Assembly: GCF_018736065.1 (NCBI RefSeq)
Contig: NZ_CP076128.1
Coordinates: 1,550,001 to 1,614,000 of the forward strand
DNA: 64,000 nucleotides
Direction: 5' to 3'
Source of the DNA: Flammeovirga kamogawensis
GTDB lineage: Bacteria; Bacteroidota; Bacteroidia; Cytophagales; Flammeovirgaceae
Below the pieces are notes generated by a model, which saw nothing but the letters and a program-made list of their open reading frames with translations, had not been told where the DNA came from and did not search any database. The position numbers were made by a program, and so were the translations under genes. Shown in pieces: positions 42,181-61,840 of this stretch (position 1 is its first letter; each line of letters starts with the position of its first letter).

Positions 42181-43362
42181 TTAATCAAGTAACTCTGTGT
42201 GAATAACTGGATTATTCTCTAATGTTCTATGTACAGGACATTTATTTGCTATTTCTAACAAGCGTTCTCGTTGCTTTTCTGTAAGATCTCCTTTGACTTG
42301 AATATGACGGTATAAGTTATCAATTTTAGCAGTACGCTTATTGGCATTTTCTGCATCCTTTAAATATTCATTTTCATGATTTAAATGGACAGTCACTTCG
42401 TCTAAATTCCATTTTTTATGGTTTGCATACATTCTCAATGTCATGGCTGTGCAAGCCCCAAGTCCTGCCAATAAAAACTGATACGGGTTAGGACCTAAAT
42501 CTTTCCCTCCATCTTTTATTGGCTCATCTGCAATCTGATGATGTACTCCAGCCTTTACTTCTGTAACATATTTAGTTGTTCCAATCCTTACAGCTGTTTG
42601 GTATTGTGTCTCCAATGGGTCTTCTAACTCCATTTCAACATATCTTTCTGCCCAGCTGCCAATCATATTCCCTACATACTGACCATTTTTAGGTGTTGAC
42701 AAAAAATGATTTGCATTATCTAAAGAAATAAAGCTCTTAGGGTGAAAGGCATTTTTATAAATTTTCTCTGCATTTTTTATGTCTACAACTGCATCAAATG
42801 GAGAGTGAAAAATCAAAATTGGCAGTTTAATTTTATGAATGATATCAGCATAATTAGGAGATGATATTTGATTGATAAAACTAGATTTTACTTTAAACTC
42901 TTTTACCAAAAGATGAACATTGGCATAATCTCCTTCAACATCTGCTACTTTCTCAATACTTTTTACTTTAGCAAAAGCACTTATAGTTACAATTGCATCT
43001 ACAGAAGCAATTCTATTTGCTAATAAAATTGCAGCACTTCCTGCTAAAGAATGTCCTATTAATAATTGTGGAGATTTAAGGTTTTCAGCCATATAATCAG
43101 AGGCAGAAAGAATATCTTCTATACTTGCTGCATATCCTGGGTTTTGCTGAGAGTAACCCGTAATATCTAAACTAAAAACAGCTATTCCTTTTTGGTTTAG
43201 CTCTCTAACGATACTATTTACAACTGTTGTTTCTTCTAATGACGAGAAGAAGCAGTGTGCAAATAATGCGTATGCGTGAGGTTTTTCATCTGCGGGTAAT
43301 GACAACGAGGCAACTAAAACATCGCCTTGGTTGTTCTTAAAATTTATAATTGAAAATGACAT
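42181..43362 (-). CDS. Alpha/beta hydrolase-OsmC fusion protein
   Basis: A 393-residue fusion. The ATG at 43362 (MSFSIINFKNNQGDVL) is chosen over a TTG nine codons upstream that lies inside the preceding gene. Residues about 1-245 form an alpha/beta hydrolase with the elbow IGHSLAGS (S105) and a late His in NANHFLS. Residues about 260-393 form an OsmC peroxiredoxin-like domain with the two family cysteines in GLGACTAMTLRM and ANKCPVHRTLE. OsmC proteins reduce organic hydroperoxides. The fusion is a known architecture in bacteria; its substrate is not known. It is the last gene of the 43-48 kb operon, 11 bases after the aldehyde dehydrogenase, and may detoxify by-products there. Confidence 0.85.
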   Translation of the reverse strand: MSFSIINFKNNQGDVLVASLSLPADEKPHAYALFAHCFFSSLEETTVVNSIVRELNQKGIAVFSLDITGYSQQNPGYAASIEDILSASDYMAENLKSPQLLIGHSLAGSAAILLANRIASVDAIVTISAFAKVKSIEKVADVEGDYANVHLLVKEFKVKSSFINQISSPNYADIIHKIKLPILIFHSPFDAVVDIKNAEKIYKNAFHPKSFISLDNANHFLSTPKNGQYVGNMIGSWAERYVEMELEDPLETQYQTAVRIGTTKYVTEVKAGVHHQIADEPIKDGGKDLGPNPYQFLLAGLGACTAMTLRMYANHKKWNLDEVTVHLNHENEYLKDAENANKRTAKIDNLYRHIQVKGDLTEKQRERLLEIANKCPVHRTLENNPVIHTELLD

Positions 43363-43373
43363 AATAGGTTTAT

Positions 43374-44741
43374 TTATACTTCTCTCCAATGATACGCCTT
43401 AGGCAGCGTAAATGCTCTAATTCCTTGTACTGATAAAGTTGCTCCAAGTCCAGAATTTTTCCGACCTGACCAAGGTACATTTGGACTAACTCTATCGCAG
43501 CAATTCCAATATACTGTACCTGAGTTCATTTGATCAAAAACATGATCTGCTCTCGTTCTACTTGTTGAAAACACTGCCGAAGTTAAGCCATATTCTGAGT
43601 CTTTCATCAAATCTATAGCCTGTTCGTCATTATTCACTTTTTGAATACCTATTATTGGTCCAAAAGATTCTTCTCGCATCAGTTTCATTTCATGATTAGC
43701 ATCTTTAAAAACAGTTGGTTCAAAATAATTACCACTGTTATTAACTTCTGTGCCACCTGTCATTAATACACCACCTTTGGTTAATGCATCTTCTACCTGA
43801 TGCTGTAAAATGGGTAATTGTGCTTTTCTAGTTAAAGGTCCTATAAAAGTCTCTTTATCTAAAGGATCACCCATTTTATAATTATTCACTTCTTTAACTA
43901 ATTCTTTTACAAATTCATCATAAATAGCAGCATGAACATAAATACGTTCAAGAGCACAGCAACTTTGTCCATTATTATAAAAAGCACCTTCTGCTGCATT
44001 AATAGCTGCTATTTTAACATCAGCAACATCTTCCATTACATACAAAGGATCTTTTCCACCTAGTTCTAATTGTACAGGTACTAATTTATGTGCTACCTTC
44101 TTAGCAATGTACTGACCTGTTTTATGAGATCCTGTAAAAAAGTAACCATCAAAATCACTTTCTAATAGATATTCTCCAACCTCTGCTCCTCCAATAATAC
44201 AATGGAAAACGTTTTCTGGAACACCTGCTTCATACAACAACTTTTGAAATTGTAATCCTGTTAAAGTAGCATATTCTGATGGTTTATAAGCCACAGCATT
44301 CCCTGCAACTAAAGCATATAAGAAAACATTATAACCTACATTATAAGGAAAGTTCCATGCTGAGATATTACATATCACACCTAATGGTTCATAAATAATT
44401 TTCTCGTATGTTGTTTCTAAACCTTCAATAACTTCTTCTGCTAACCACTTTTCTGCATTTAATTTTAAATGCTCAATCCTATTTTGTGCTCCCTTTATTT
44501 CATTAATTGATTGTTGAATAGGCTTACCTGTTTCTTCAGTCAAAATAGTAGCCAATTCATTTACATTTTCAAGAACTAATTCTCCAAAACGAACGATACA
44601 CTCCAACCTATGTTTTACTGTCTGTATTGCCCAATCTTTTTGACCAAGTCGTAAATGATCTATTTTATCTGAAAGAACTTCAATCGAATCTTCTGTTATT
44701 GAGGTTATTATTGAATCATTTGCAGGGTTAATAATGTCCAT
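43374..44741 (-). CDS. NAD(P)-dependent aldehyde dehydrogenase (GabD-like)
   Basis: A 455-residue aldehyde dehydrogenase. The general-base glutamate is in QLELGGKDP near residue 225 and the catalytic cysteine is C261 in NGQSCCALER. NISAWNFPYNVG near residue 130 and ESFGPIIGIQK near 355 are standard. It resembles succinate-semialdehyde dehydrogenases of the shorter type. In this operon, between a gamma-glutamyl amidase and the hydrolase-OsmC fusion, its likely job is to oxidise a gamma-glutamylated aldehyde to the acid. The stop is 11 bases before the next start. Alternative: free succinate or glutarate semialdehyde oxidation. Confidence 0.88.
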   Translation of the reverse strand: MDIINPANDSIITSITEDSIEVLSDKIDHLRLGQKDWAIQTVKHRLECIVRFGELVLENVNELATILTEETGKPIQQSINEIKGAQNRIEHLKLNAEKWLAEEVIEGLETTYEKIIYEPLGVICNISAWNFPYNVGYNVFLYALVAGNAVAYKPSEYATLTGLQFQKLLYEAGVPENVFHCIIGGAEVGEYLLESDFDGYFFTGSHKTGQYIAKKVAHKLVPVQLELGGKDPLYVMEDVADVKIAAINAAEGAFYNNGQSCCALERIYVHAAIYDEFVKELVKEVNNYKMGDPLDKETFIGPLTRKAQLPILQHQVEDALTKGGVLMTGGTEVNNSGNYFEPTVFKDANHEMKLMREESFGPIIGIQKVNNDEQAIDLMKDSEYGLTSAVFSTSRTRADHVFDQMNSGTVYWNCCDRVSPNVPWSGRKNSGLGATLSVQGIRAFTLPKAYHWREV

Positions 44742-44746
44742 AGATG

Positions 44747-45484
44747 TTATTTTATATGTGATAAGAAAGTATCGTAAAGTGGATTAGGATCTAAGATTTG
44801 ACTTCCTAATGTTTTAGAAAATTCTGGGTGCCATTGTACTGCCATTACCATTCCTTCTGATTTCCCGTTATAACCAAATGCTTCTACCAGTCCATCATCA
44901 GAAGTAGCCCAAACGTCTAAACCTGTTCCGAGCTCTTTTACCGATTGATGATGAATTGTATTTACATATGGATTGGAATTATTTGGATACAATGAAGCTA
45001 AAAAAGAAGACTCTTTAATGACCAAAGGGTGTTTAATAGTATCATATAGCTCTGCAGAACGATGGTTATTAACTCCTTCTTTTTGAGTTAAAGTATCTTG
45101 ATATAATGTTCCTCCAAAATAAACATTCATCAACTGAAACCCCCTGCATATTCCAAATATTGGTTTATCATTTTTAATGGCATAATCAATAATTTGTAAT
45201 TCATAATCATCTCTATATTTATCTCCTTTCCATTGCCCTATAGGTTTTTCTCCATACGATTCAGGAGCTAAATCTACTCCTCCCTGCAAAATAAAACCTT
45301 GCATTTCATCTAGAATATCCTTCAATAATGGTTTATCAATATCTGGTAGTAAAACAGGTAATATACCTTTTCGAGCAATGTAAGTCATCATGTCGTTTTC
45401 CACATAAGTTAACGATTTCGGACCGTATACTGCTCTATTACTATCAGGATACATGAAGCTTGGAGTAATACCTATTTTTATCAT
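44747..45484 (-). CDS. Gamma-glutamyl amidase, PuuD-type (class I glutamine amidotransferase-like)
   Basis: A 245-residue peptidase C26 enzyme that cleaves gamma-glutamyl amides, as PuuD does for gamma-glutamyl-GABA. The ATG at 45484 (MIKIGITPSFMYPD) is chosen: it comes one base after the upstream stop and begins the conserved first strand. An overlapping ATG at 45496 is also possible. GVDLAPESYGE near 84-94 and GICRGFQLMNVYFGG near 110-124, with the nucleophile Cys about 112, are diagnostic. QWHPEFSKT near 220 supplies the His and Glu. In this operon it would release glutamate from the final glutamylated acid. Confidence 0.9.
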   Translation of the reverse strand: MIKIGITPSFMYPDSNRAVYGPKSLTYVENDMMTYIARKGILPVLLPDIDKPLLKDILDEMQGFILQGGVDLAPESYGEKPIGQWKGDKYRDDYELQIIDYAIKNDKPIFGICRGFQLMNVYFGGTLYQDTLTQKEGVNNHRSAELYDTIKHPLVIKESSFLASLYPNNSNPYVNTIHHQSVKELGTGLDVWATSDDGLVEAFGYNGKSEGMVMAVQWHPEFSKTLGSQILDPNPLYDTFLSHIK

Positions 45485-45485
45485 C

Positions 45486-46637
45486 TTATAATGCATTTCT
45501 ATAGATTTGCTCAAACTCCTCTTCAGTCACTATTTTAGGGTTACTTGGCAAACAGAAATCTTTTACTGCCAATGCTGCAAGTGGTTTTATATGTTCTTCC
45601 TTTACTCCAATTTGAGACAAGGAATCTGGCAAGCCTAGTTGCTGATTTAAAATTTCTATATGGTCTACAAGATTCTTTCCTTGGTTGGTCCCTAGGTTCA
45701 TTGAATACGCCATAAAGTTGTATTTATCTTCAAACCCTTGATAATTAAACTTTAAACCATGAGGTAAACAAATAGCATTTGCCAAGCCATGATGTGTATC
45801 TAAAAGAGAAGATAATGGATGTGCTAAACTATGCACAATACCTAAGCCCTTCTGAAAAGCGACAGCTCCCATCAGTGAACCAATCATCATTTTTGAACGA
45901 GAAAACATATTTGGCTCTTTTGTAGCTTGCACAATTGAAGTACCTATTAATCTCATTCCAGAAATTGCTATACCATCACACATGGGGTTAAACCCTCTTG
46001 ATAAATAAGCTTCCATGTTATGCGTTAATGCATCCATGCCGGTTGCTGCAGTAACAAAAGGAGGTAAATCAAGTGTTAACATTGGATCTGCAAACACAAT
46101 TTTAGCCAACAGTTTGGGTGAAAATAAAATTTTCTTTTGCCTTGTTTCATCATCAGAAATAATGGCACTTCTACCAACTTCACTTCCCGTTCCTGAAGTA
46201 GTTGGAACTGTTATAAAGTGAGGAACTTCTTCTGTTACATATTTATCTCCACCAATTAAATCATCATAATCAAAAAGGTCTCTTGTGTGGTTTACACGTA
46301 AAACAATTGCTCTTGCAACATCCATTGCTACACCTCCACCAATTCCAATAACAGCATCACACTCATGTCCGTGGTAGGCATCTCCTCCTTTTAAAACATC
46401 AGATTTTAGCGGATTTTTATGCATATCGTAAAAAACGGCAGGTGAAATTCCTTCTCTCTCTAAATCTGCAATAATGTTTTTAAAGAATGGCAATCCAAAA
46501 ACTAATTCATCCGTCACTAACAACGGTCTTGACAGGTTATGTTCTTTTAGATAAGGTCCTAATTCTTTGACAACTCCAATTCCAAAACGTATTGTTGTAG
46601 GAAAGTTATAGGTGTAAGTAGCGTGAATGTCTAACAT
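45486..46637 (-). CDS. Iron-containing alcohol dehydrogenase
   Basis: A 383-residue group III alcohol dehydrogenase. It has the NAD-binding GIGGGVAMDVARA near 98-110 and TVPTTSGTGSEV near 140. The iron ligands are in ATGMDALTHNMEAYLS (Asp, His) and in GLGIVHSLAHPLSS and DTHHGLANA (two His). It oxidises a primary alcohol to an aldehyde with NAD. It lies three bases after the PuuA-like gene and one base before the PuuD-like gene, so it is part of the same operon. An alcohol dehydrogenase is not part of the standard Puu pathway, which uses the FAD oxidase PuuB, so the substrate here should carry a hydroxyl group. Confidence 0.9.
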   Translation of the reverse strand: MLDIHATYTYNFPTTIRFGIGVVKELGPYLKEHNLSRPLLVTDELVFGLPFFKNIIADLEREGISPAVFYDMHKNPLKSDVLKGGDAYHGHECDAVIGIGGGVAMDVARAIVLRVNHTRDLFDYDDLIGGDKYVTEEVPHFITVPTTSGTGSEVGRSAIISDDETRQKKILFSPKLLAKIVFADPMLTLDLPPFVTAATGMDALTHNMEAYLSRGFNPMCDGIAISGMRLIGTSIVQATKEPNMFSRSKMMIGSLMGAVAFQKGLGIVHSLAHPLSSLLDTHHGLANAICLPHGLKFNYQGFEDKYNFMAYSMNLGTNQGKNLVDHIEILNQQLGLPDSLSQIGVKEEHIKPLAALAVKDFCLPSNPKIVTEEEFEQIYRNAL

Positions 46638-46640
46638 ATC

Positions 46641-47999
46641 TTATATTATTTCAAAATATCTTTTTGTTTCCCAATCAGTAACATGATTCATAAATTGTTT
46701 CCACTCCCACTCTCTTGACAGTGTGAAATGTTCTACGAATTCTTCACCAAATAAATCCTTCATTAGAGAAGAGTTTTTCATTTTCTGCGTTGCATCCCAA
46801 AGATTAGAAGGTAAAGTTCCATTTTTAAAATCTTCATAACCATTTCCAATTGTTTTGGGGGTATCTAGCTTTAATTTGTTTTCTATTCCATACAATCCAG
46901 CAGCTAAACAGGCTGACATTGCCAAATATGGATTAACATCAGAACCCACTACTCTTGTTTCTAATCTAGCAGATTTTTTACCATGAGGTAATGCCCTTAA
47001 TGCTGTTGTTCTATTATCAACTGCCCAGGTTAAGGTTGTTGGCGCCCAAGCCCCTTCTACTAACCTTTTATAACTATTGATAGTAGGAGCCAACATAGGA
47101 AGCATAAACGGTAAACAATGCAATTGTCCAGCAATATAAGATTGCATTATATCACTGATATTATCTTCTTTATCAGCATCATAAAATAAGTTTTGTGTTT
47201 TATCAATATTCCATAAACTTTGATGAACATGGCCACTACAGCCAGGTAATTTCATGTTCTGTTTAGCCATAAAACTAGCTATTATACCATGTTTATAACC
47301 AATCTCTTTTGCAGAAGATTTAAATAAGGTTGCTCTATCTGCGGCTTCAACAATATCACTATATTGAATTGCTGCTTCATAAACTCCTGGTCCTGTTTCT
47401 GTATGTAGACCTTCTAAAGGGACTTTAAAATCTTCCATCATATCAAACAATGCATGAAAGAAATCGCTATTTTCGGATGCTCTTAAAATAGAATACCCAA
47501 ACATTCCTTCTGTAAGTGGTTTTATATTATTGAAGTCTTTTTCATGTAATTCTGTAGTTGTCTGCTTAAAATTAAACCACTCAAATTCCTGAGAAAAGAG
47601 TGGAGCAAAACCTAAATCATTTGCTTTAGTATTTATTCTTTTGAGTAAAGCTCTAGGTCCTACAGTTTCTTCGTCTTTATTTTCTCTGCTAAAATCAGCT
47701 AAGAAAAAAGGAACATCATCTTCCCAAGGAACTTGTCTAAAAGTATTTACATCTATCCTAGCAGGAGCATCTGGATAACCTGTATGCCAACCTGTTACTT
47801 TAACATTATCATAAGATTCATCGGCCATATCCCAACCAAAAACAACATCACAAAATCCAAATCCACTATCAAGAGAAGAGATAAATTTATTGATGTGCAT
47901 GTATTTTCCACGGAGGACTCCGTCAATATCTACAATAGCAACTTTTACTTTTGTATGTCTACTATCTTCAAGTAGATCAATAATTTCTTGTTTGGTCAT
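46641..47999 (-). CDS. Glutamine-synthetase-family gamma-glutamylamine ligase (PuuA/GlnA4-like)
   Basis: A 452-residue protein of the glutamine synthetase type III-like PuuA group, which joins glutamate to an amine with ATP. It starts with a short N-domain (VAIVDIDGVLRGKYMHINKF). The catalytic domain has ETGPGVYEAAI near 215, SGHVHQSLWN near 265 and the cofactor segment RTTALRALPHGKKSARLETRVVG split near 325-347 with Arg residues intact. Unlike true GlnA it lacks the adenylylation-site Tyr loop region in recognisable form. It is the first gene of the operon. Ethanolamine is proposed as substrate from the alcohol dehydrogenase next door; putrescine and monoamines are alternatives. Confidence 0.85.
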   Translation of the reverse strand: MTKQEIIDLLEDSRHTKVKVAIVDIDGVLRGKYMHINKFISSLDSGFGFCDVVFGWDMADESYDNVKVTGWHTGYPDAPARIDVNTFRQVPWEDDVPFFLADFSRENKDEETVGPRALLKRINTKANDLGFAPLFSQEFEWFNFKQTTTELHEKDFNNIKPLTEGMFGYSILRASENSDFFHALFDMMEDFKVPLEGLHTETGPGVYEAAIQYSDIVEAADRATLFKSSAKEIGYKHGIIASFMAKQNMKLPGCSGHVHQSLWNIDKTQNLFYDADKEDNISDIMQSYIAGQLHCLPFMLPMLAPTINSYKRLVEGAWAPTTLTWAVDNRTTALRALPHGKKSARLETRVVGSDVNPYLAMSACLAAGLYGIENKLKLDTPKTIGNGYEDFKNGTLPSNLWDATQKMKNSSLMKDLFGEEFVEHFTLSREWEWKQFMNHVTDWETKRYFEII

Positions 48000-48088
48000 A
48001 TAAGGTTAGTCGTCTAGAACAATAAGAGAGTTTATCTATATAAATTAGAGTTTTTTGCTGTAAAACGGAAATCCCACAAACAAAAAAA

Positions 48089-48112
48089 GCCTACAATTCA
48101 AAAATTGTAGGC
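48089..48112 (-). terminator. Terminator of the AhpD-like gene
   Basis: GCCTACAATT (48089-48098) pairs perfectly with AATTGTAGGC (48103-48112), and a T run follows on the minus strand. It separates the AhpD-like gene from the amine operon. Confidence 0.85.
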
Positions 48113-48132
48113 CATTATAAGAAAAATGCAAC

Positions 48133-48489
48133 TTATTTCTGTTCTTCTATTTCTTTAAATAAAGCATCTAAGTATTCTACAGCTCTTCTTAAATGAGGAA
48201 TTACAATTGTACCACCAACTACGTTAGCTACACCCATACCTTCAATAATTTGTGCTTTAGAATATCCTAACTCTACACATTTTTCTAAATGATATTTTAC
48301 ACAATCATCACAACGTAAAACAAGAGATGTTGTTAAACCGATGATTTCTTTTGTTTTTTCGTCTAAAGCACCTTCAGCATAAGTAATAGTATCAAGGCTA
48401 TAAATTCTTTTAATTACTTTATCTGCATTGTCTATTACTTTCTTATTCTGACTGGCTCTTCTTTCTCTATATTCGTTTAATAAATCCAT
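48133..48489 (-). CDS. Carboxymuconolactone decarboxylase/AhpD-like protein
   Basis: A 118-residue small helical protein with the redox motif CDDC at residues 60-63 and a following His at 67 (VKYHLEKC). This CxxC-x3-H layout is that of AhpD-type peroxidase partners, not of true carboxymuconolactone decarboxylases. It probably acts in the cytoplasm on peroxides or disulfides. The DUF417 membrane protein gene lies 51 bases upstream on the same strand and the TetR gene beyond that, so the three may form a stress-response unit. Function within the family is inferred. Confidence 0.8.
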   Translation of the reverse strand: MDLLNEYRERRASQNKKVIDNADKVIKRIYSLDTITYAEGALDEKTKEIIGLTTSLVLRCDDCVKYHLEKCVELGYSKAQIIEGMGVANVVGGTIVIPHLRRAVEYLDALFKEIEEQK

Positions 48490-50153: not shown

Positions 50154-51722
50154 TTATTCACCCGCTTTTGCAGCTCCTTTATCCATCATTTGGTATAACA
50201 TTTCTTGCATTTTACCAGGAGATAATGTTTCTGGACGCTGACGTGGAGGGAAGTCTTTAAAACTCATAAAGAACTGACCTAACATTTGTTTTGCTGGAAC
50301 AAATAACCACATTTTTTGACCGTACCATTTTAAGTACATTCCAGAGTGATCTGCTGCTTCGTATGGATCTTGAGCTAAATTGTAAATCTTAGGCCATGAA
50401 ACTTCAAATCTGTGACCTGAGAACCACATATCTGGACCTTCGCCTTCTTGGATTACAAAGTGAATTTTCCAATCATTCCAACGCATTGCTTGTACCATAC
50501 CATTGTCTGCAACATAGAAGAAAGTATCTCTTGCTGATTTTTCTGATTTACCAGTGAAGTAATCCCATTGATTATAACCATCTAAATGTAATTTGAATGT
50601 TTTATCACCAACTGTCATCCCTTCTTTCATTTTTTCAACCAACTTAGTATCACCAGTTGCTGCTGCGTACAATGTAGGCATCATATCTTCATGAGAAACA
50701 ATACCGTTTAATCTACGTCCTGTGTTTTTGATTCCTTTTGGATATCTAATGACAAATGGTACACGAACACCACCTTCCCAAGTAGATCCTTTCTCACCAC
50801 GGAATGGAGAAATACCACCGTCAGGCCATGTCATTTTTTCAACACCATTATCTGTAGTGAAAATAACAATTGTATTTTCTGCAACACCTAATTCTTCTAA
50901 TTTATTTAATAATAAACCAACATTATCATCAAGTTCTTTCATACCTGCACCGTATAAACCGTAATCATGAAGATACTGTTTGTATTTATCATTTAAGTGA
51001 GTAAATGCGTGCATACGAGTAGAGTTAAACCAAACAAAGAAAGGTTTATCATCTTTAACTGCTTGTGTCATGAATCTTTCAGAAGCTTGTAAGAAATCCT
51101 CATCTACATCTTCCATTCGCTTTTTTGTTAAAGGACCCGTATCAGAAATATGTCCATCAGCATAAGAATGAATTACTCCTCTAGGACCATATTTTTTCTT
51201 GAATGCCGGGTCTGTAGGGTAAGCAGGGTCTTCTGGCTCTTCCTCAGCATTTAAATGATAAAGGTTACCGTAAAATTCATCAAAACCATGATTTGTTGGT
51301 AAGAACTCGTCTCTATCGCCTAAATGGTTTTTACCAAATTGACCTGTGGCATAACCGTAAGGTTTTAATAGTTCAGCAATTGTTGCATCTTCATCTTGTA
51401 ATCCTATTTTAGAACCTGGCATACCAATAGTAGTTAAACCCGTTCTTAATGGTGATTGACCTGTAATGAAAGCTGCTCTACCTGCAGTACAAGATTGTTG
51501 ACCATACTCTGAAGTTAAAACAACACCTTCTTTACCTATTTCGTCAATATTTGGAGTTTGATAAGCAAGCATGCCATTATTGTATGTACTAACGTTCCCA
51601 TACCCAATGTCATCACCCATAATTACTAATATATTCGGTCTATCTTTTGTCTTGCTTTTTTGAGCAAAAGCACCCAATGACGTCATCAGTAAGAAACCAA
51701 CTGTAATTAATTTTTTGTTCAT
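50154..51722 (-). CDS. Secreted formylglycine sulfatase, copy A
   Basis: A 522-residue type I sulfatase that removes sulfate esters, most likely from marine polysaccharides. The signal peptide ends near residue 20 (LGAFAQ). RPNILVIMGDDIGYGN at 28-43 holds the metal-binding aspartates D37 and D38. CTAGR at 78-82 is the formylglycine motif, with C78 converted by a maturase. GKNHLGD and TTDNGVEKM supply further active-site residues. The Ala form (CTAGR rather than CxPxR) is accepted by known maturases. It is a tandem paralogue of copy B 357 bases upstream. Substrate is not known; no maturase is in the window. Confidence 0.92.
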   Translation of the reverse strand: MNKKLITVGFLLMTSLGAFAQKSKTKDRPNILVIMGDDIGYGNVSTYNNGMLAYQTPNIDEIGKEGVVLTSEYGQQSCTAGRAAFITGQSPLRTGLTTIGMPGSKIGLQDEDATIAELLKPYGYATGQFGKNHLGDRDEFLPTNHGFDEFYGNLYHLNAEEEPEDPAYPTDPAFKKKYGPRGVIHSYADGHISDTGPLTKKRMEDVDEDFLQASERFMTQAVKDDKPFFVWFNSTRMHAFTHLNDKYKQYLHDYGLYGAGMKELDDNVGLLLNKLEELGVAENTIVIFTTDNGVEKMTWPDGGISPFRGEKGSTWEGGVRVPFVIRYPKGIKNTGRRLNGIVSHEDMMPTLYAAATGDTKLVEKMKEGMTVGDKTFKLHLDGYNQWDYFTGKSEKSARDTFFYVADNGMVQAMRWNDWKIHFVIQEGEGPDMWFSGHRFEVSWPKIYNLAQDPYEAADHSGMYLKWYGQKMWLFVPAKQMLGQFFMSFKDFPPRQRPETLSPGKMQEMLYQMMDKGAAKAGE

Positions 51723-52079: not shown

Positions 52080-53642
52080 TTAGTTCTTTGGTGTTCTATC
52101 CATCATTTGATATAACATCTCTTGCATTTTACCAGGGCTTAATAATTCTGGTCTTTGGCGAGGAGGAAACTCTTTAAAACTCATAAAGAATTCGCCTAAT
52201 TTTTCTTTAGCAGGAACAAATAACCACATTTTTTGTCCGTACCATTTTAAGTACATTCCAGAATGATCAGCTGATTCATAAGGATCTTGTGCTAAGTTAT
52301 AGATCTTTGGCCATGAAAGAGCAAATCTATGACCTGAGAACCACATATCTGGACCTTCACCTTCTTGAACAATAAAGTGGATTTTCCAATCATCCCAACG
52401 CATTGCTTGGATCATACCATTATCTGCAACATAGAAGAAAGTATCTCTTCTCGATTTCTCTTCTTTACCTGTAAAGTAATCCCATTGGTTATAACCATCT
52501 AAATGTACTTTATAAGTTTGCTCATCACCTTTGTAACCTTTAGTCTTTAAAGTTTCCTTTAAATCATCTTTTCCAGTTACTGCTGCATATAATGTAGGCA
52601 TCATATCTTCATGAGAAACAATACCATTTAATTTACGTCCTGTATTTTTAATTCCGTTAGGGTATTTGATTACAAATGGTACACGAACACCACCTTCCCA
52701 AGTAGATCCTTTCTCGCCACGGAATGGAGAAATACCACCGTCAGGCCATGTCATTTTTTCAACACCATTATCTGTAGTGAAAATAACAATTGTATTTTCT
52801 GCAACGCCTAATTCTTCTAATTTATTTAATAAGGTACCCACCTGATCATCTAATTCTTTCATTCCAGCACCGTATAAACCGTACTTGTTTACTAATTTCT
52901 TAGATTCTTCTGTAAGGTGTGTAAATACGTGCATACGAGTGGAGTTAAACCAAACAAAGAATGGTTTATCTTCGTTTACAGCTTTCTCCATGAAGTTGAT
53001 AGAAGCATTCATAAATTCTCCATCTACAGTCTCCATTCTCTTCTTATTTAAAGGACCTGTATCAGAGATACGTCCGTCTGCATAAGAATGAATAACACCT
53101 CTAGGGCCATATTTTTTCTTGAATGCAGGATCTGTAGGGTAAGCAGGATCTTCTGGCTCCTCTTCTGCATTTAAGTGGTAAAGGTTACCAAAAAACTCAT
53201 CAAAACCATGGTTTGTAGGCAAGAATTCATCTCTATCGCCTAAATGGTTTTTACCAAATTGACCAGATGTATAACCTAATGGTTTTAAAATTTCTGCAAT
53301 TGTAGGATCTTCTTTTTGAATACCAATTTTAGAACCTGGCATACCAATAGTAGATAAACCTGTTCTTAATGGCGATTGTCCTGTAATGAAAGCAGCACGT
53401 CCTGCAGTACAAGATTGTTGTGCATATTGTGAAGTTAATGTCACCCCTTTTTCACCAATACCATCAATGTTTGGAGTTTGGTATGCCAACATTTTATTAT
53501 TGTAAATACTGATGTTTCCGTATCCAACATCATCACCCATAATTACCAAAATATTTGGCTTTTTATTTTTCTTAGATTTTTGAGCGAACATTGCTCCGGC
53601 AGTCATTAATAAGACTGAAATTGTTAGTAAAACTTTTCTCAT
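52080..53642 (-). CDS. Secreted formylglycine sulfatase, copy B
   Basis: A 520-residue type I sulfatase, close paralogue of copy A over its whole length. The signal peptide ends near residue 20 (GAMFAQ), D37 and D38 are the metal ligands, and CTAGR sits at 78-82 (C78). Differences cluster in the region near residues 365-390 (TGKDDLKETLKTKGYKGD here, shorter in copy A) and in the C-terminal tail. The central segment around TTDNGVEKMTWPDGGISPF is identical at protein level and almost identical at DNA level. Each gene has its own terminator, so they are expressed separately. They probably act on related sulfated substrates. Confidence 0.92.
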   Translation of the reverse strand: MRKVLLTISVLLMTAGAMFAQKSKKNKKPNILVIMGDDVGYGNISIYNNKMLAYQTPNIDGIGEKGVTLTSQYAQQSCTAGRAAFITGQSPLRTGLSTIGMPGSKIGIQKEDPTIAEILKPLGYTSGQFGKNHLGDRDEFLPTNHGFDEFFGNLYHLNAEEEPEDPAYPTDPAFKKKYGPRGVIHSYADGRISDTGPLNKKRMETVDGEFMNASINFMEKAVNEDKPFFVWFNSTRMHVFTHLTEESKKLVNKYGLYGAGMKELDDQVGTLLNKLEELGVAENTIVIFTTDNGVEKMTWPDGGISPFRGEKGSTWEGGVRVPFVIKYPNGIKNTGRKLNGIVSHEDMMPTLYAAVTGKDDLKETLKTKGYKGDEQTYKVHLDGYNQWDYFTGKEEKSRRDTFFYVADNGMIQAMRWDDWKIHFIVQEGEGPDMWFSGHRFALSWPKIYNLAQDPYESADHSGMYLKWYGQKMWLFVPAKEKLGEFFMSFKEFPPRQRPELLSPGKMQEMLYQMMDRTPKN

Positions 53643-58776: not shown

Positions 58777-58804
58777 AAAGCCCAAGGTTAATTCTTTGGG
58801 CTTT
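58777..58804. terminator. Bidirectional terminator between YceI and permease genes
   Basis: AAAGCCCAAG (58777-58786) pairs with CTTTGGGCTTT (58794-58804), then a T run. The minus-strand permease gene ends inside it. Confidence 0.8.
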
Positions 58805-60119
58805 TTTTGTGTTCAATTTTTCTGTAATTGATGATAAAATAGCTAAATGTACCAAGCATAATTACTATAAAAATGATGGCTAAATAGAGGTTATAATACG
58901 TCATTGCTACTAAAGATACGGTTGCAATAACTAAAGCTATTAATGGGAAAAAAGGATAAAAAGGAACTTTAAACGGACGATTTAAATTGGGTTCTTTTTT
59001 TCTTAATGAAAAGAATGAAAGCATTGAAATAATATACAAAACTAGTGCTCCAAAGCATGCAATGGTAATAATTTCAGCTGTTTTACCTGTAAACAAAGCA
59101 ATTATACCAATAATCATGTTTACTAATAAAGCAGCTATTGGTGTTTTAAATTTAGGATGTATTTTACTCAAAAATTTTGGTGCATAACCTTCTCTCCCAA
59201 ACTCAAAAGTAGAACGACCGGCAGCTAAAATTATACCATGAAAAGAAGCAACTAAACCTAATAAACCAACTCCAATTAATAGTTTATATAAAATATTACC
59301 TTCTGATACTACTTGCCCCAATGCTAGAGGTAATGGTGAGTCTGATGGAACAGTACTTGACGGTAAGTAAACAATAGCTTCCCAACCTCCTACTCCAACT
59401 GCAGAAACAAAAGTGAGTACACATAAAACTACCAATGTTATAATAGATGACCCAAAACCTAATAAGATACTTTTTGATGGATTTTTTGTCTCCTCTGCAA
59501 CATTTGCTACTCCTTCAATGGCTAGAAAAAACCAAATTGCAAAAGGAATTGAAGCAAAAATACCCGGTATTCCATTTGGAAAGGCATTGTATGTTAAATT
59601 AGAAAATTCGAAATGAGGTAATGTTACTCCAGAAAAAATCAATAATTCTAGAACAGCTAATATTGTAATGATCAACTCGAAAGTAGCAGCTAGTTTTACA
59701 CCTAAAATATTAATAGCAGTGAATATAAAATATGCTGCTATTGCAAAATAGAGAGTATCTATTGATGGATATAACAAGTTAAGGTATGCTCCTATTGCTG
59801 AAGCAATAGCGGGTGGAGCAAAAATAAATTCTATATTTTGAGCCATGCCACCAAGAAAGCCTAATTTCGGACCTAACCCTCTCTTTGCATATTCAAAAGC
59901 GCCTCCTGCCTTAGGAATTGCACAAGCTAATTCTGTATATGAGAAGGTAAATGTAACATACATTATTACCACAAAAAATGTAGCAATAGCTAACCCTAAT
60001 GTTCCTCCTTCTGCTAATCCTAAATTCCATCCGAAATACATTCCAGAGATTACATATCCAACACCTAACCCCCATAACATTAATGGAGTAAGGGTTTTTG
60101 TTAATTGAGGAGCACTCAT
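58788..60119 (-). CDS. APC-family permease resembling ethanolamine transporters
   Basis: A 443-residue, 12-helix amino acid-polyamine-organocation permease. The start WGLGVGYVISGMYFGWNLGL and the segment AIPKAGGAFEYAKRGLGPK with MAQNIEFIFAPPAIA closely recall ethanolamine permeases (eat type) from memory of the family. Other conserved parts are AIEGVANVAEETKNPSKSI near helix six and GRSTFEFGREGYAP near helix eight. It would import ethanolamine or a similar small amine with protons. No eutBC genes are near; an alternative ethanolamine route may be encoded at 43-48 kb. It could instead carry an amino acid. Confidence 0.8.
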   Translation of the reverse strand: MSAPQLTKTLTPLMLWGLGVGYVISGMYFGWNLGLAEGGTLGLAIATFFVVIMYVTFTFSYTELACAIPKAGGAFEYAKRGLGPKLGFLGGMAQNIEFIFAPPAIASAIGAYLNLLYPSIDTLYFAIAAYFIFTAINILGVKLAATFELIITILAVLELLIFSGVTLPHFEFSNLTYNAFPNGIPGIFASIPFAIWFFLAIEGVANVAEETKNPSKSILLGFGSSIITLVVLCVLTFVSAVGVGGWEAIVYLPSSTVPSDSPLPLALGQVVSEGNILYKLLIGVGLLGLVASFHGIILAAGRSTFEFGREGYAPKFLSKIHPKFKTPIAALLVNMIIGIIALFTGKTAEIITIACFGALVLYIISMLSFFSLRKKEPNLNRPFKVPFYPFFPLIALVIATVSLVAMTYYNLYLAIIFIVIMLGTFSYFIINYRKIEHKKSPKN

Positions 60120-60199: not shown

Positions 60200-61840
60200 T
60201 TATTCAAAAATTACAACTTCATCTTTACTGAACCAATCAGCATAAAATGGAGTATGAATTTTCTCTAAGTTATTTCTCTTTAATTTTAATGTTGGAGTCA
60301 ATAAACCATTGTCAATTGTCCAATCTTCTTTCATTACAATAACTTTAGCTATTTTTTCGTAATTAGGAAGCTTTTGATTTAAGGTATCTAAAGACTCTTT
60401 TAAAGATTGTTTTAAAGCATCTTGAGATAAATCTTTACCTCCTTCAGAAGGAACAATTAATGCTATTGGCTGAGGGATACCAGTACCTACAACACAAACT
60501 TGTTCAATATTAGGATTATCAGATAAAGGTAACTCTAAATGATTTGGAGAGATATACTTTCCTTTATCCGTTTTAAATTGATCTTTTACTCTACCTACTA
60601 TTGATAGGTAACCGTCATGATCGTACTCTCCTAAATCTCCAGTTTTTAAGAAACCATCTTCATCAAATAATGCCGCAGTTTGAGCTTCATCTTTAAAGTA
60701 GCCCATAGTTAGACAATCACTCTTAAGACAAACTTCTCCCTCACCAGATAATTTAGTTTGAATATGTGCATATTTCTGCCCTACTGAACCTATTCTGTTC
60801 ATACCAGGAAAGTTCATATGAGATACACAAACATCTTCTGACATACCGTATCCTTGATTTACATCTAAACCTAACGTTTTAAACCATTCTTGTAAATCTG
60901 GAGAGATTGGTGCTGCACCAGAGATAACAGAAACAGCTTCCTGTAAACCTAAAGCAGATACAATTTTCTTTCTGATTACATTATTTATAAAAGGTATTTT
61001 TAATAAGATGTTCAATTTATTTTGAGGCATCTTTTTAAGTATACTTTCTTGGAATTTTTGGAAAATTCTTGGTACTGCAAAGAACATGTGAGGCTTAGCT
61101 TCTGCAAGGTTTGCAGGGAAAGACTCTAAAGATTCTGGGAAAGCAATACTTCCTCCTAAATATAAGCCAATAAACTCATAGGCTGCTCTTTCTGCAATAT
61201 GTGCTAAAGATAAGAATGCAAAGAATCTTGGGTTTTTAGGCAAATCAAAGTGATGTTCAAATTCACTAACAGCAAATTCAACACTACCATAAGAGTGCAT
61301 TACACCTTTAGGATTACCTGTTGTTCCAGAAGTATACAAGATTGTCATCAAGTCTTCTTTTTTAGGCTTAAAGATATCTTGAAGTGGTTCATTTTTTCCA
61401 ACTAAATCATCCCAACCTAATTCCTCATTCATACCATGCATTTCAATTCCTATTTTCGGAATATCAGTCACCCCATCTTTTTGAGAAACATAATCATCTA
61501 GCTTACCAATAAAAATGGCTTTAGATTCTGAATGATTAAGAATCTGATTAATTGTTTCTTTATCAGTAGTAGGATAAATAGGAATACTCACGCATCCTGC
61601 CATTAAAATAGCAATATCAGCCATAATCCAATGTGAGCAATTCTTTGATAAAATTGCAACATGGTCTCCACGTTCCATACCAATAGATTTCAAGCCTGAA
61701 GCTATCTTTCTAATTTGGTCTCCTGCTTCTTTATAAGATAAAGTAACTTTCTTACCATTAATATTTTGATGAAGAAAAGGTTGATTAGGTGTTTCTTTTT
61801 CCCACTTCTGGAATGCATCCAAGACTGATATAAAACTCAT
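60200..61840 (-). CDS. Long-chain fatty acid-CoA ligase (AMP-binding)
   Basis: A 546-residue ANL-superfamily enzyme that activates fatty acids to acyl-CoA through acyl-AMP. The P-loop LYTSGTTGNPKGV is near 168-180, the second motif NQGYGMSEDV near 325-335, and KTGDLGEYDHDGYLSIVGRVKD near 400-420 holds the adenylate-binding Asp and hinge. The C-terminal lid is short compared with typical ligases. SYGSVEFAVSEFEHHFDL and the overall pattern are those of the FadD15/FACL group. It stands alone, with its own terminator, next to the permease gene. Chain-length preference cannot be read. Confidence 0.9.
   Translation of the reverse strand: MSFISVLDAFQKWEKETPNQPFLHQNINGKKVTLSYKEAGDQIRKIASGLKSIGMERGDHVAILSKNCSHWIMADIAILMAGCVSIPIYPTTDKETINQILNHSESKAIFIGKLDDYVSQKDGVTDIPKIGIEMHGMNEELGWDDLVGKNEPLQDIFKPKKEDLMTILYTSGTTGNPKGVMHSYGSVEFAVSEFEHHFDLPKNPRFFAFLSLAHIAERAAYEFIGLYLGGSIAFPESLESFPANLAEAKPHMFFAVPRIFQKFQESILKKMPQNKLNILLKIPFINNVIRKKIVSALGLQEAVSVISGAAPISPDLQEWFKTLGLDVNQGYGMSEDVCVSHMNFPGMNRIGSVGQKYAHIQTKLSGEGEVCLKSDCLTMGYFKDEAQTAALFDEDGFLKTGDLGEYDHDGYLSIVGRVKDQFKTDKGKYISPNHLELPLSDNPNIEQVCVVGTGIPQPIALIVPSEGGKDLSQDALKQSLKESLDTLNQKLPNYEKIAKVIVMKEDWTIDNGLLTPTLKLKRNNLEKIHTPFYADWFSKDEVVIFE

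Follow-up and report, generated by a model that had tools for sequence, protein, structure and literature searches.

We identified, in a 64,000-nt stretch of the genome of Flammeovirga kamogawensis (phylum Bacteroidota; contig NZ_CP076128.1, positions 1,550,001 to 1,614,000; the whole stretch is hereafter the window), a minus-strand operon encoding a ligase, an iron-type alcohol dehydrogenase, an amidase and an aldehyde dehydrogenase. Judging from sequence, this operon and a more distant gene for an Eat-family permease (eat) are highly likely to constitute a vitamin B12-independent ethanolamine catabolic module that yields glycine and glutamate. Ethanolamine is a building block of membrane lipids and, coming from phosphatidylethanolamine, serves as a source of carbon and nitrogen. 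The route itself is already known from Phaeobacter, Chromohalobacter, Agrobacterium and Streptomyces; the novelty lies in the phylum, Bacteroidota, in the ligase, which belongs to a separate branch, and in the combination with a Peptidase C26 amidase and an Eat permease.

Operon and proposed pathway

The components of the proposed module are the following:

46641..47999, minus strand: glutamine synthetase (GS)-like ligase, proposed ethanolamine gamma-glutamylase (452 aa; PF00120, 313.6 bits)
45486..46637, minus strand: iron-type alcohol dehydrogenase (Fe-ADH), proposed gamma-glutamylethanolamide dehydrogenase (383 aa; PF00465/PF25137)
44747..45484, minus strand: Peptidase C26 (PuuD-like) amidase, proposed gamma-glutamylglycine hydrolase (PF07722, 183.5 bits)
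43374..44741, minus strand: aldehyde dehydrogenase (ALDH), proposed gamma-glutamylacetaldehyde dehydrogenase (455 aa; PF00171, 412.3 bits)
58788..60119, minus strand: Eat-family ethanolamine permease (443 aa; above the TIGR00908 cut-off)

The open reading frames (ORFs) and Pfam families of the operon agree with an initial interpretation made from the DNA alone (the sequence-only reading), and all four enzyme classes of the ethanolamine gamma-glutamyl pathway are encoded together. The amidase more likely starts at ATG 45484, one base past the Fe-ADH stop codon, than at the listed TTG 45514 (255 aa from TTG); with the ATG start, the gaps between the four consecutive genes are 3, 1 and 5 bases. 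The permease, encoded 10.8 kb from the ligase operon, scores 476.7 bits against a cut-off of 381.75 bits for the curated TIGR00908 “ethanolamine permease” model, which bears out the resemblance to ethanolamine transporters proposed in the sequence-only reading. Two absences noted there were likewise recovered: a Pfam scan of six ORFs (42181 to 48489) matched no aminotransferase family, and EutB had no match in the F. kamogawensis genome (6.97 Mb, four contigs), in a search that detected the E. coli positive control. The eut reading was set aside on the latter result.

We infer ethanolamine as the substrate, and each individual reaction, from the enzyme families, the genomic associations of the ligase and permease, and the conserved residues described below. 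In the proposed pathway, Eat would import ethanolamine, and the ligase, spending ATP, would join it to the gamma-carboxyl group of glutamate to form gamma-glutamylethanolamide. Fe-ADH would then oxidize the hydroxyl group to give gamma-glutamylacetaldehyde, which ALDH would convert to gamma-glutamylglycine, and the C26 amidase would release glutamate, to be recycled, and glycine. Throughout, the glutamyl cap would tether the aldehyde and block the amine. The glycine would be available to the glycine cleavage system, and the presence of a glycine decarboxylase gene in the genome supports this assignment.

Conservation of the gene set and the permease link

A large ligase tree was built from 123 of 124 rows, one row shorter than 430 aa (L094, 411 aa) having been dropped. 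The window ligase falls in a clade of 82 rows (clade A; support of 98 in the SH-like approximate likelihood ratio test), which comprises 74 of the 80 loci examined as relatives (the best 80 of 594 confirmed stretches from a contig scan), 7 further genomes and the window. Five of the 80 loci fall in a group outside clade A; of the remaining 75, 55 have at least 1.5 kb of sequence upstream and at least 4.5 kb downstream.

Among these 55 loci, the gene immediately preceding the ligase on the same strand is an eat homologue, called by blastp rather than by its TIGR00908 score, in 40 (39 under a stricter spacing rule); such a homologue occurs anywhere in the stretch in 42. Fe-ADH is directly downstream of the ligase in 40/55 and present anywhere in 46/55, the amidase is found in 41/55 (in 4 as a fusion to ALDH), and an ALDH over 45% in 42/55. 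In 35/55, eat is adjacent and the fetched stretch also contains Fe-ADH, amidase and ALDH; thus, the gene set recurs in other Bacteroidota and is not a chance association. Amidase and ALDH are fused into a single gene in five loci (L049, L050, L059, L063, L074), with both domains confirmed by Pfam for L063. Both the frequent adjacency of eat and the fusions support the ethanolamine reading.

Alternation of eat partners

Of 395 Bacteroidota genomes, 20 had a TIGR00908 match above the cut-off, 12 had EutB and 41 had the ligase (E ≤ 1e-100). Eight of the 20 eat-bearing genomes carry EutB, which is adjacent to eat in six (G394, G387, G253, G099, G214, G249), 0.7 kb from it in G363 and on another contig in G371. 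A clade-A ligase is likewise present in eight, adjacent to eat in seven (G162, G126, G033, G300, G091, G391, G150) and 10.8 kb away in F. kamogawensis itself. Two genomes (G158, G064) carry the order ligase-short-chain dehydrogenase/reductase (SDR)-ALDH-amidotransferase-eat, with a ligase of another type and with families checked for G158; operons of this order in Bacteroidota (L145:4973-10491, L146:5300-10901) are composed like the Streptomyces GlnA4 cluster. In the remaining two (G190, G215), none of these sets was found near eat.

None of the 20 eat-bearing genomes holds both EutB and a clade-A ligase, and the chance of zero overlap between two groups of eight in 20 is 0.004, assuming independent genomes. 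This alternation of partners behind one permease family supports ethanolamine as the substrate. Five genomes with eat and EutB also hold a ligase homologue, but it belongs to the B groups discussed below and lies elsewhere in the genome. Of the 41 ligase-bearing genomes, 28 are represented in the large ligase tree (F. kamogawensis, 7 small loci and 20 fetched stretches); the remaining 13 belong to family group f25 and were left unplaced, and none of them has eat above the cut-off or EutB. In plasmid records, three of the four fetched eat genes (of 17 matches) adjoin eutB and eutC. The fourth is located beside a primary-amine oxidase gene in Paraburkholderia (L170:5992-9481), which suggests a further ethanolamine route.

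Catalytic residues and predicted ligase fold

The checked GS metal, glutamate and ATP residues are kept in the ligase, except GS N264, which is replaced by P (A or V in the ethanolamine-type rows), and the ammonia-site residues Y179 and E327 are replaced by F and W, respectively. This combination of kept and replaced residues adds to the support for the ethanolamine reading. According to passages of PMC6529630, Y179 and E327 are also missing from GlnA4 and PauA7, and the replacement of Y179 was interpreted as providing space for a larger amine. The alternative of a true glutamine synthetase was set aside, given the F/W replacements and scores under the TIGR00653 and TIGR03105 glutamine synthetase cut-offs. 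The score against the gamma-glutamylputrescine synthetase model NF045547, 192.6 bits, does not reach its cut-off of 650.

In the amidase, Cys123, His229 and Glu231 (numbered from the TTG) align with PuuD Cys114, His222 and Glu224, which we take to be the catalytic residues, and the ALDH carries the ELGGK and NNGQSCC motifs, presumably the functional motifs of this family. The AlphaFold2 (AF2) model of the ligase has a predicted local distance difference test (pLDDT) score of 84.9, and the first 50 Foldseek rows for it include 11zs, 8wwu (1-naphthylamine ligase), 9qur (methylamide synthetase) and 5dm3.

Ligase and permease phylogeny

A careful ligase tree was built from 37 rows chosen by hand from the large tree and two PDB sequences; it includes the ligases of the two Bacteroidota clusters of GlnA4 make-up, GlnA4 itself being outside the tree. 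In the large tree, the window ligase groups with ligases of Saprospiraceae, Flavobacteriaceae and Sphingobacterium (13 rows, support 98). A topology that holds 14 clade-A rows and 8 Eto/GlnA4-type rows in one clade is 49 log-likelihood units worse (approximately unbiased (AU) test, p 2.3e-6; long branches are present), and membership of the window ligase in the Eto/GlnA4-type clade (that of 5dm3 and of ligases linked to tripartite ATP-independent periplasmic (TRAP) transporters) was rejected at this p value. This corrects the earlier characterization of the ligase as PuuA/GlnA4-like: the protein is GS-like (PF00120) but stands outside the Eto/GlnA4-type branch.

The permease tree, in which the bootstrap had not fully settled, comprises 20 hand-chosen ligase-linked permeases, that of the window, 12 further ones, 4 from plasmids (of the 17 matches) and PuuP as the outgroup. 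In it, the window permease belongs to a group (8 rows, 100/97) with ligase-linked permeases from Saprospiraceae, Flavobacteriaceae and Sphingobacterium. Since the permease and the ligase group with the same lineages, the ligase operon very probably had this now distant eat as its original partner, the two having moved apart, and this shared grouping also supports the ethanolamine reading. The permeases of the two operons of GlnA4 make-up are 69% identical to that of the window, and the tree does not resolve them from the ligase-linked ones. On the same strand as eat, a gene for an AMP-dependent acyl-CoA ligase (60200-61840) stops 80 bases before it; the two genes could serve the use of membrane lipids (fatty acid plus ethanolamine).

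The B-group ligases are near the window type, and they do not form one clade in either ligase tree. At the 25 B loci (5 of the 80 loci, L088, L105, L108, L112 and L117, and 20 stretches, L122-L141), the ligases precede a protein of about 348 aa that has no Pfam match (e.g. L131:7759-9665), and eat and Fe-ADH are not beside them. A HAD-IIA-like hydrolase is encoded in the stretch of 24 of the 25 B loci with the ~348-aa protein, and some B loci also encode a GS-like protein of 337 aa (9 loci) or a GGACT cyclotransferase (6 loci). The ~348-aa protein has the motif VDWNIGNF...RWDYDW, reminiscent of APH/choline-kinase-like enzymes; its AF2 model (pLDDT 44) and a best PDB sequence match with an E value of 0.94 gave no identification. 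Given these different neighbours, the B-group proteins should not be called ethanolamine ligases, and a window-like ligase alone is insufficient for the ethanolamine assignment.

The nearest ligases in the plasmid records examined include those of Legionella lytica and Photobacterium, which lie in ligase-ALDH-Fe-ADH-amidotransferase sets, and other plasmid-record relatives stand beside glucose-methanol-choline (GMC) oxidoreductase or aminotransferase genes. Accordingly varied neighbours indicate that the substrate has probably varied within the broader ligase branch.

Comparison with known systems

The sequence-only reading had cited a route of this kind proposed around GlnA4 in Streptomyces. 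Such a cluster is indeed known, but the route is better documented in other organisms outside Bacteroidota, namely Phaeobacter and Chromohalobacter/Agrobacterium, as far as passages of PMC10132767 go. These describe a Phaeobacter cluster of a regulator, a gamma-glutamylglycine amidohydrolase, the TRAP transporter EtoVWX, an ethanolamine gamma-glutamylase, and aldehyde and alcohol dehydrogenases, several products of which were more abundant on phosphorylethanolamine. They also state, crediting Vetting et al., that related genes were demonstrated in Chromohalobacter salexigens and Agrobacterium tumefaciens, whereas the corresponding passages of PMC6529630 refer to the Chromohalobacter pathway as predicted in silico; on this point, the two sources disagree.

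The alphaproteobacterial Eto operon (ETAGA-GAADDH-GETADH-GGAH in Phaeobacter) would carry out the same four proposed steps as the window operon, with homologous ligase, ALDH and Fe-ADH. However, the window ligase comes from another branch, the window amidase is a Peptidase C26 protein where Eto has an N-formylglutamate amidohydrolase, Eat takes the place of the TRAP system, and no regulator lies directly beside the window operon. Plasmid operons of Qingshengfaniella and Marinovum follow the Phaeobacter gene order, with the alcohol dehydrogenase annotated as iron-containing or class IV. Relative to these two and the operon of Rhizobium leguminosarum (L168), the window proteins are 34-35% (ligase), 35-38% (ALDH) and 36-38% (Fe-ADH) identical; the last range covers the three ethanolamine-type plasmid operons L165, L167 and L168, and the Fe-ADH identity to Legionella lytica is 39%. 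This homology to operons of published order further supports the ethanolamine reading. The ligase of Qingshengfaniella is 74% identical to 5dm3 (titled Chromohalobacter salexigens Csal_0679). Downstream of the Salipiger enzyme set, which has no transporter, are genes for serine hydroxymethyltransferase and serine ammonia-lyase, which fits glycine as the product.

The Streptomyces GlnA4 cluster resembles the window in its ligase, alcohol and aldehyde dehydrogenases, amidase and associated permease, and in the loss of Y179 and E327; its alcohol dehydrogenase is an SDR and its amidase is of the glutamine amidotransferase type, whereas the window has Fe-ADH and the C26 enzyme. The eutBC-plus-eat systems share with the window the permease family (45-51% identity) and the proposed substrate, but the F. 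kamogawensis genome lacks EutB and the window route would involve neither B12 nor acetaldehyde. The E. coli Puu pathway has in common with the window glutamylation, an ALDH step and a C26 amidase with conserved triad positions; in the window, an alcohol dehydrogenase replaces the amine oxidase, the operon has no aminotransferase and the permease is not PuuP-like.

Alternative substrates

Several observations weigh against ethanolamine as the substrate. The window ligase is 33-35% identical to the ethanolamine-type ligases and stands outside their clade, and it is slightly closer to IpuC (38.5%), from the isopropylamine (Ipu) locus of Paenarthrobacter pTC1. The eutB-linked permeases form their own group with the amine-oxidase-linked one (93/84), with the 45-51% identity to the window permease given above, so that the same substrate across groups is not guaranteed. 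The ligase retains D at the position that aligns with GS D50, in a region of poor local alignment, and the Foldseek rows also include true glutamine synthetases, so that the fold does not discriminate. The genomes in the count of EutB and clade-A exclusivity are not independent. Finally, eat is absent from the fetched flank in 13 of the 55 clade-A loci, five of which (L042 and L043, both Flammeovirga, L049, L050 and L080) have Fe-ADH, amidase and ALDH and eight of which also lack the full enzyme set, and five loci (L046, L052, L064, L092, L093) have eat and no Fe-ADH.

The same four-step chemistry could act on a different primary amino alcohol, for example 3-aminopropanol (to beta-alanine) or alaninol (to alanine), ethanolamine then being a side substrate at best. 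The enzyme set would suit any amine with a terminal hydroxyl group, and IpuC, to which the ligase is nearer than to the ethanolamine-type ligases, is annotated as a gamma-glutamylisopropylamide synthetase. We consider this unlikely, given that the permease family is found with the clade-A operon, with EutB or with the operon of GlnA4 make-up, and EutBC and GlnA4 act on ethanolamine, according to passages of PMC6529630. An Ipu-like route, in which an alkylamine devoid of a hydroxyl group would be glutamylated and hydroxylated first, draws on IpuC being the closest substrate-named ligase among those compared. However, the ipuC locus includes genes for a cytochrome P450, a ferredoxin and a reductase, and no monooxygenase, cytochrome P450 or ferredoxin family was matched in the six Pfam-scanned ORFs around the operon (42181-48489), which makes this route highly improbable.

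There is also very little probability in a Puu-like route for putrescine or another polyamine with an unusual oxidation step. The ligase is 28% identical to PuuA and the amidase 33% identical to PuuD, and two more distant relatives adjoin genes for an aminotransferase and spermidine/putrescine-type ATP-binding cassette (ABC) proteins. Yet Fe-ADH would have no evident role on a diamine, no aminotransferase is encoded in the operon, and the permease is an Eat protein, 24% identical to the compared part of PuuP; a search of the genome with E. coli PuuB gave no match at E ≤ 0.001, from one sequence query run without a positive control. Ethanolamine, the substrate favored in the sequence-only reading, thus remains the best supported on the genomic associations listed above.

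Implications

We lean towards a broader scenario in which Bacteroidota built their own ethanolamine-to-glycine route: independently of the Eto/GlnA4 lineage, a lineage of GS-like ligases would have become active on ethanolamine and combined with a C26 amidase and Eat. The outcome would be a B12-free substitute that takes turns with eutBC behind one permease family and is widely distributed among Flammeovirga, Pedobacter, Sphingobacterium, Cyclobacterium, Chitinophagaceae and Flavobacteriaceae. The matches listed in the open-licence PMC literature (titles and abstract starts) include no description of an ethanolamine gamma-glutamyl route in Bacteroidota, in keeping with what the sequence-only reading had surmised; passages of PMC6529630 and PMC9397018 name Flavobacterium among ethanolamine-using genera without giving a route. 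If the second ligase lineage is real, surveys by etoX, glnA4 or eutBC would overlook these Bacteroidota users; about 94% of marine etoX matches were assigned to Alphaproteobacteria, according to passages of PMC10132767. The scenario also predicts which Bacteroidota would need B12 to use ethanolamine (holders of eutB but not holders of the operon) and offers a testable function for a whole clade of GS-like ligases.

Neighbouring features

Two further features flank the operon:

48088..48113, minus strand: terminator-like stem-loop (11 pairs, 4-base loop, T run)
42181..43389, minus strand: alpha/beta hydrolase-OsmC protein, overlapping the end of the ALDH gene (PF02566, PF12146)

Located between the ligase and an upstream AhpD-like gene, the stem-loop (48113-48088) probably terminates the latter and leaves the ligase as the first gene of its unit, although terminator-like matches in this stretch do not exceed those in shuffled sequences (2 versus a mean of 2.7). 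A promoter scan gave 27 matches against 28.7 expected, nothing beyond chance. The hydrolase-OsmC gene is possibly co-transcribed with the operon, outside the route, and it also follows ALDH in two other Flammeovirga loci (L042, L043). The ligase is 85% identical to its homologues in Flammeovirga sp. EKP202 and F. aprica. Two similar genes in tandem (50154-51722 and 52080-53642), located between the operon and eat, appear sulfatase-like by eye.

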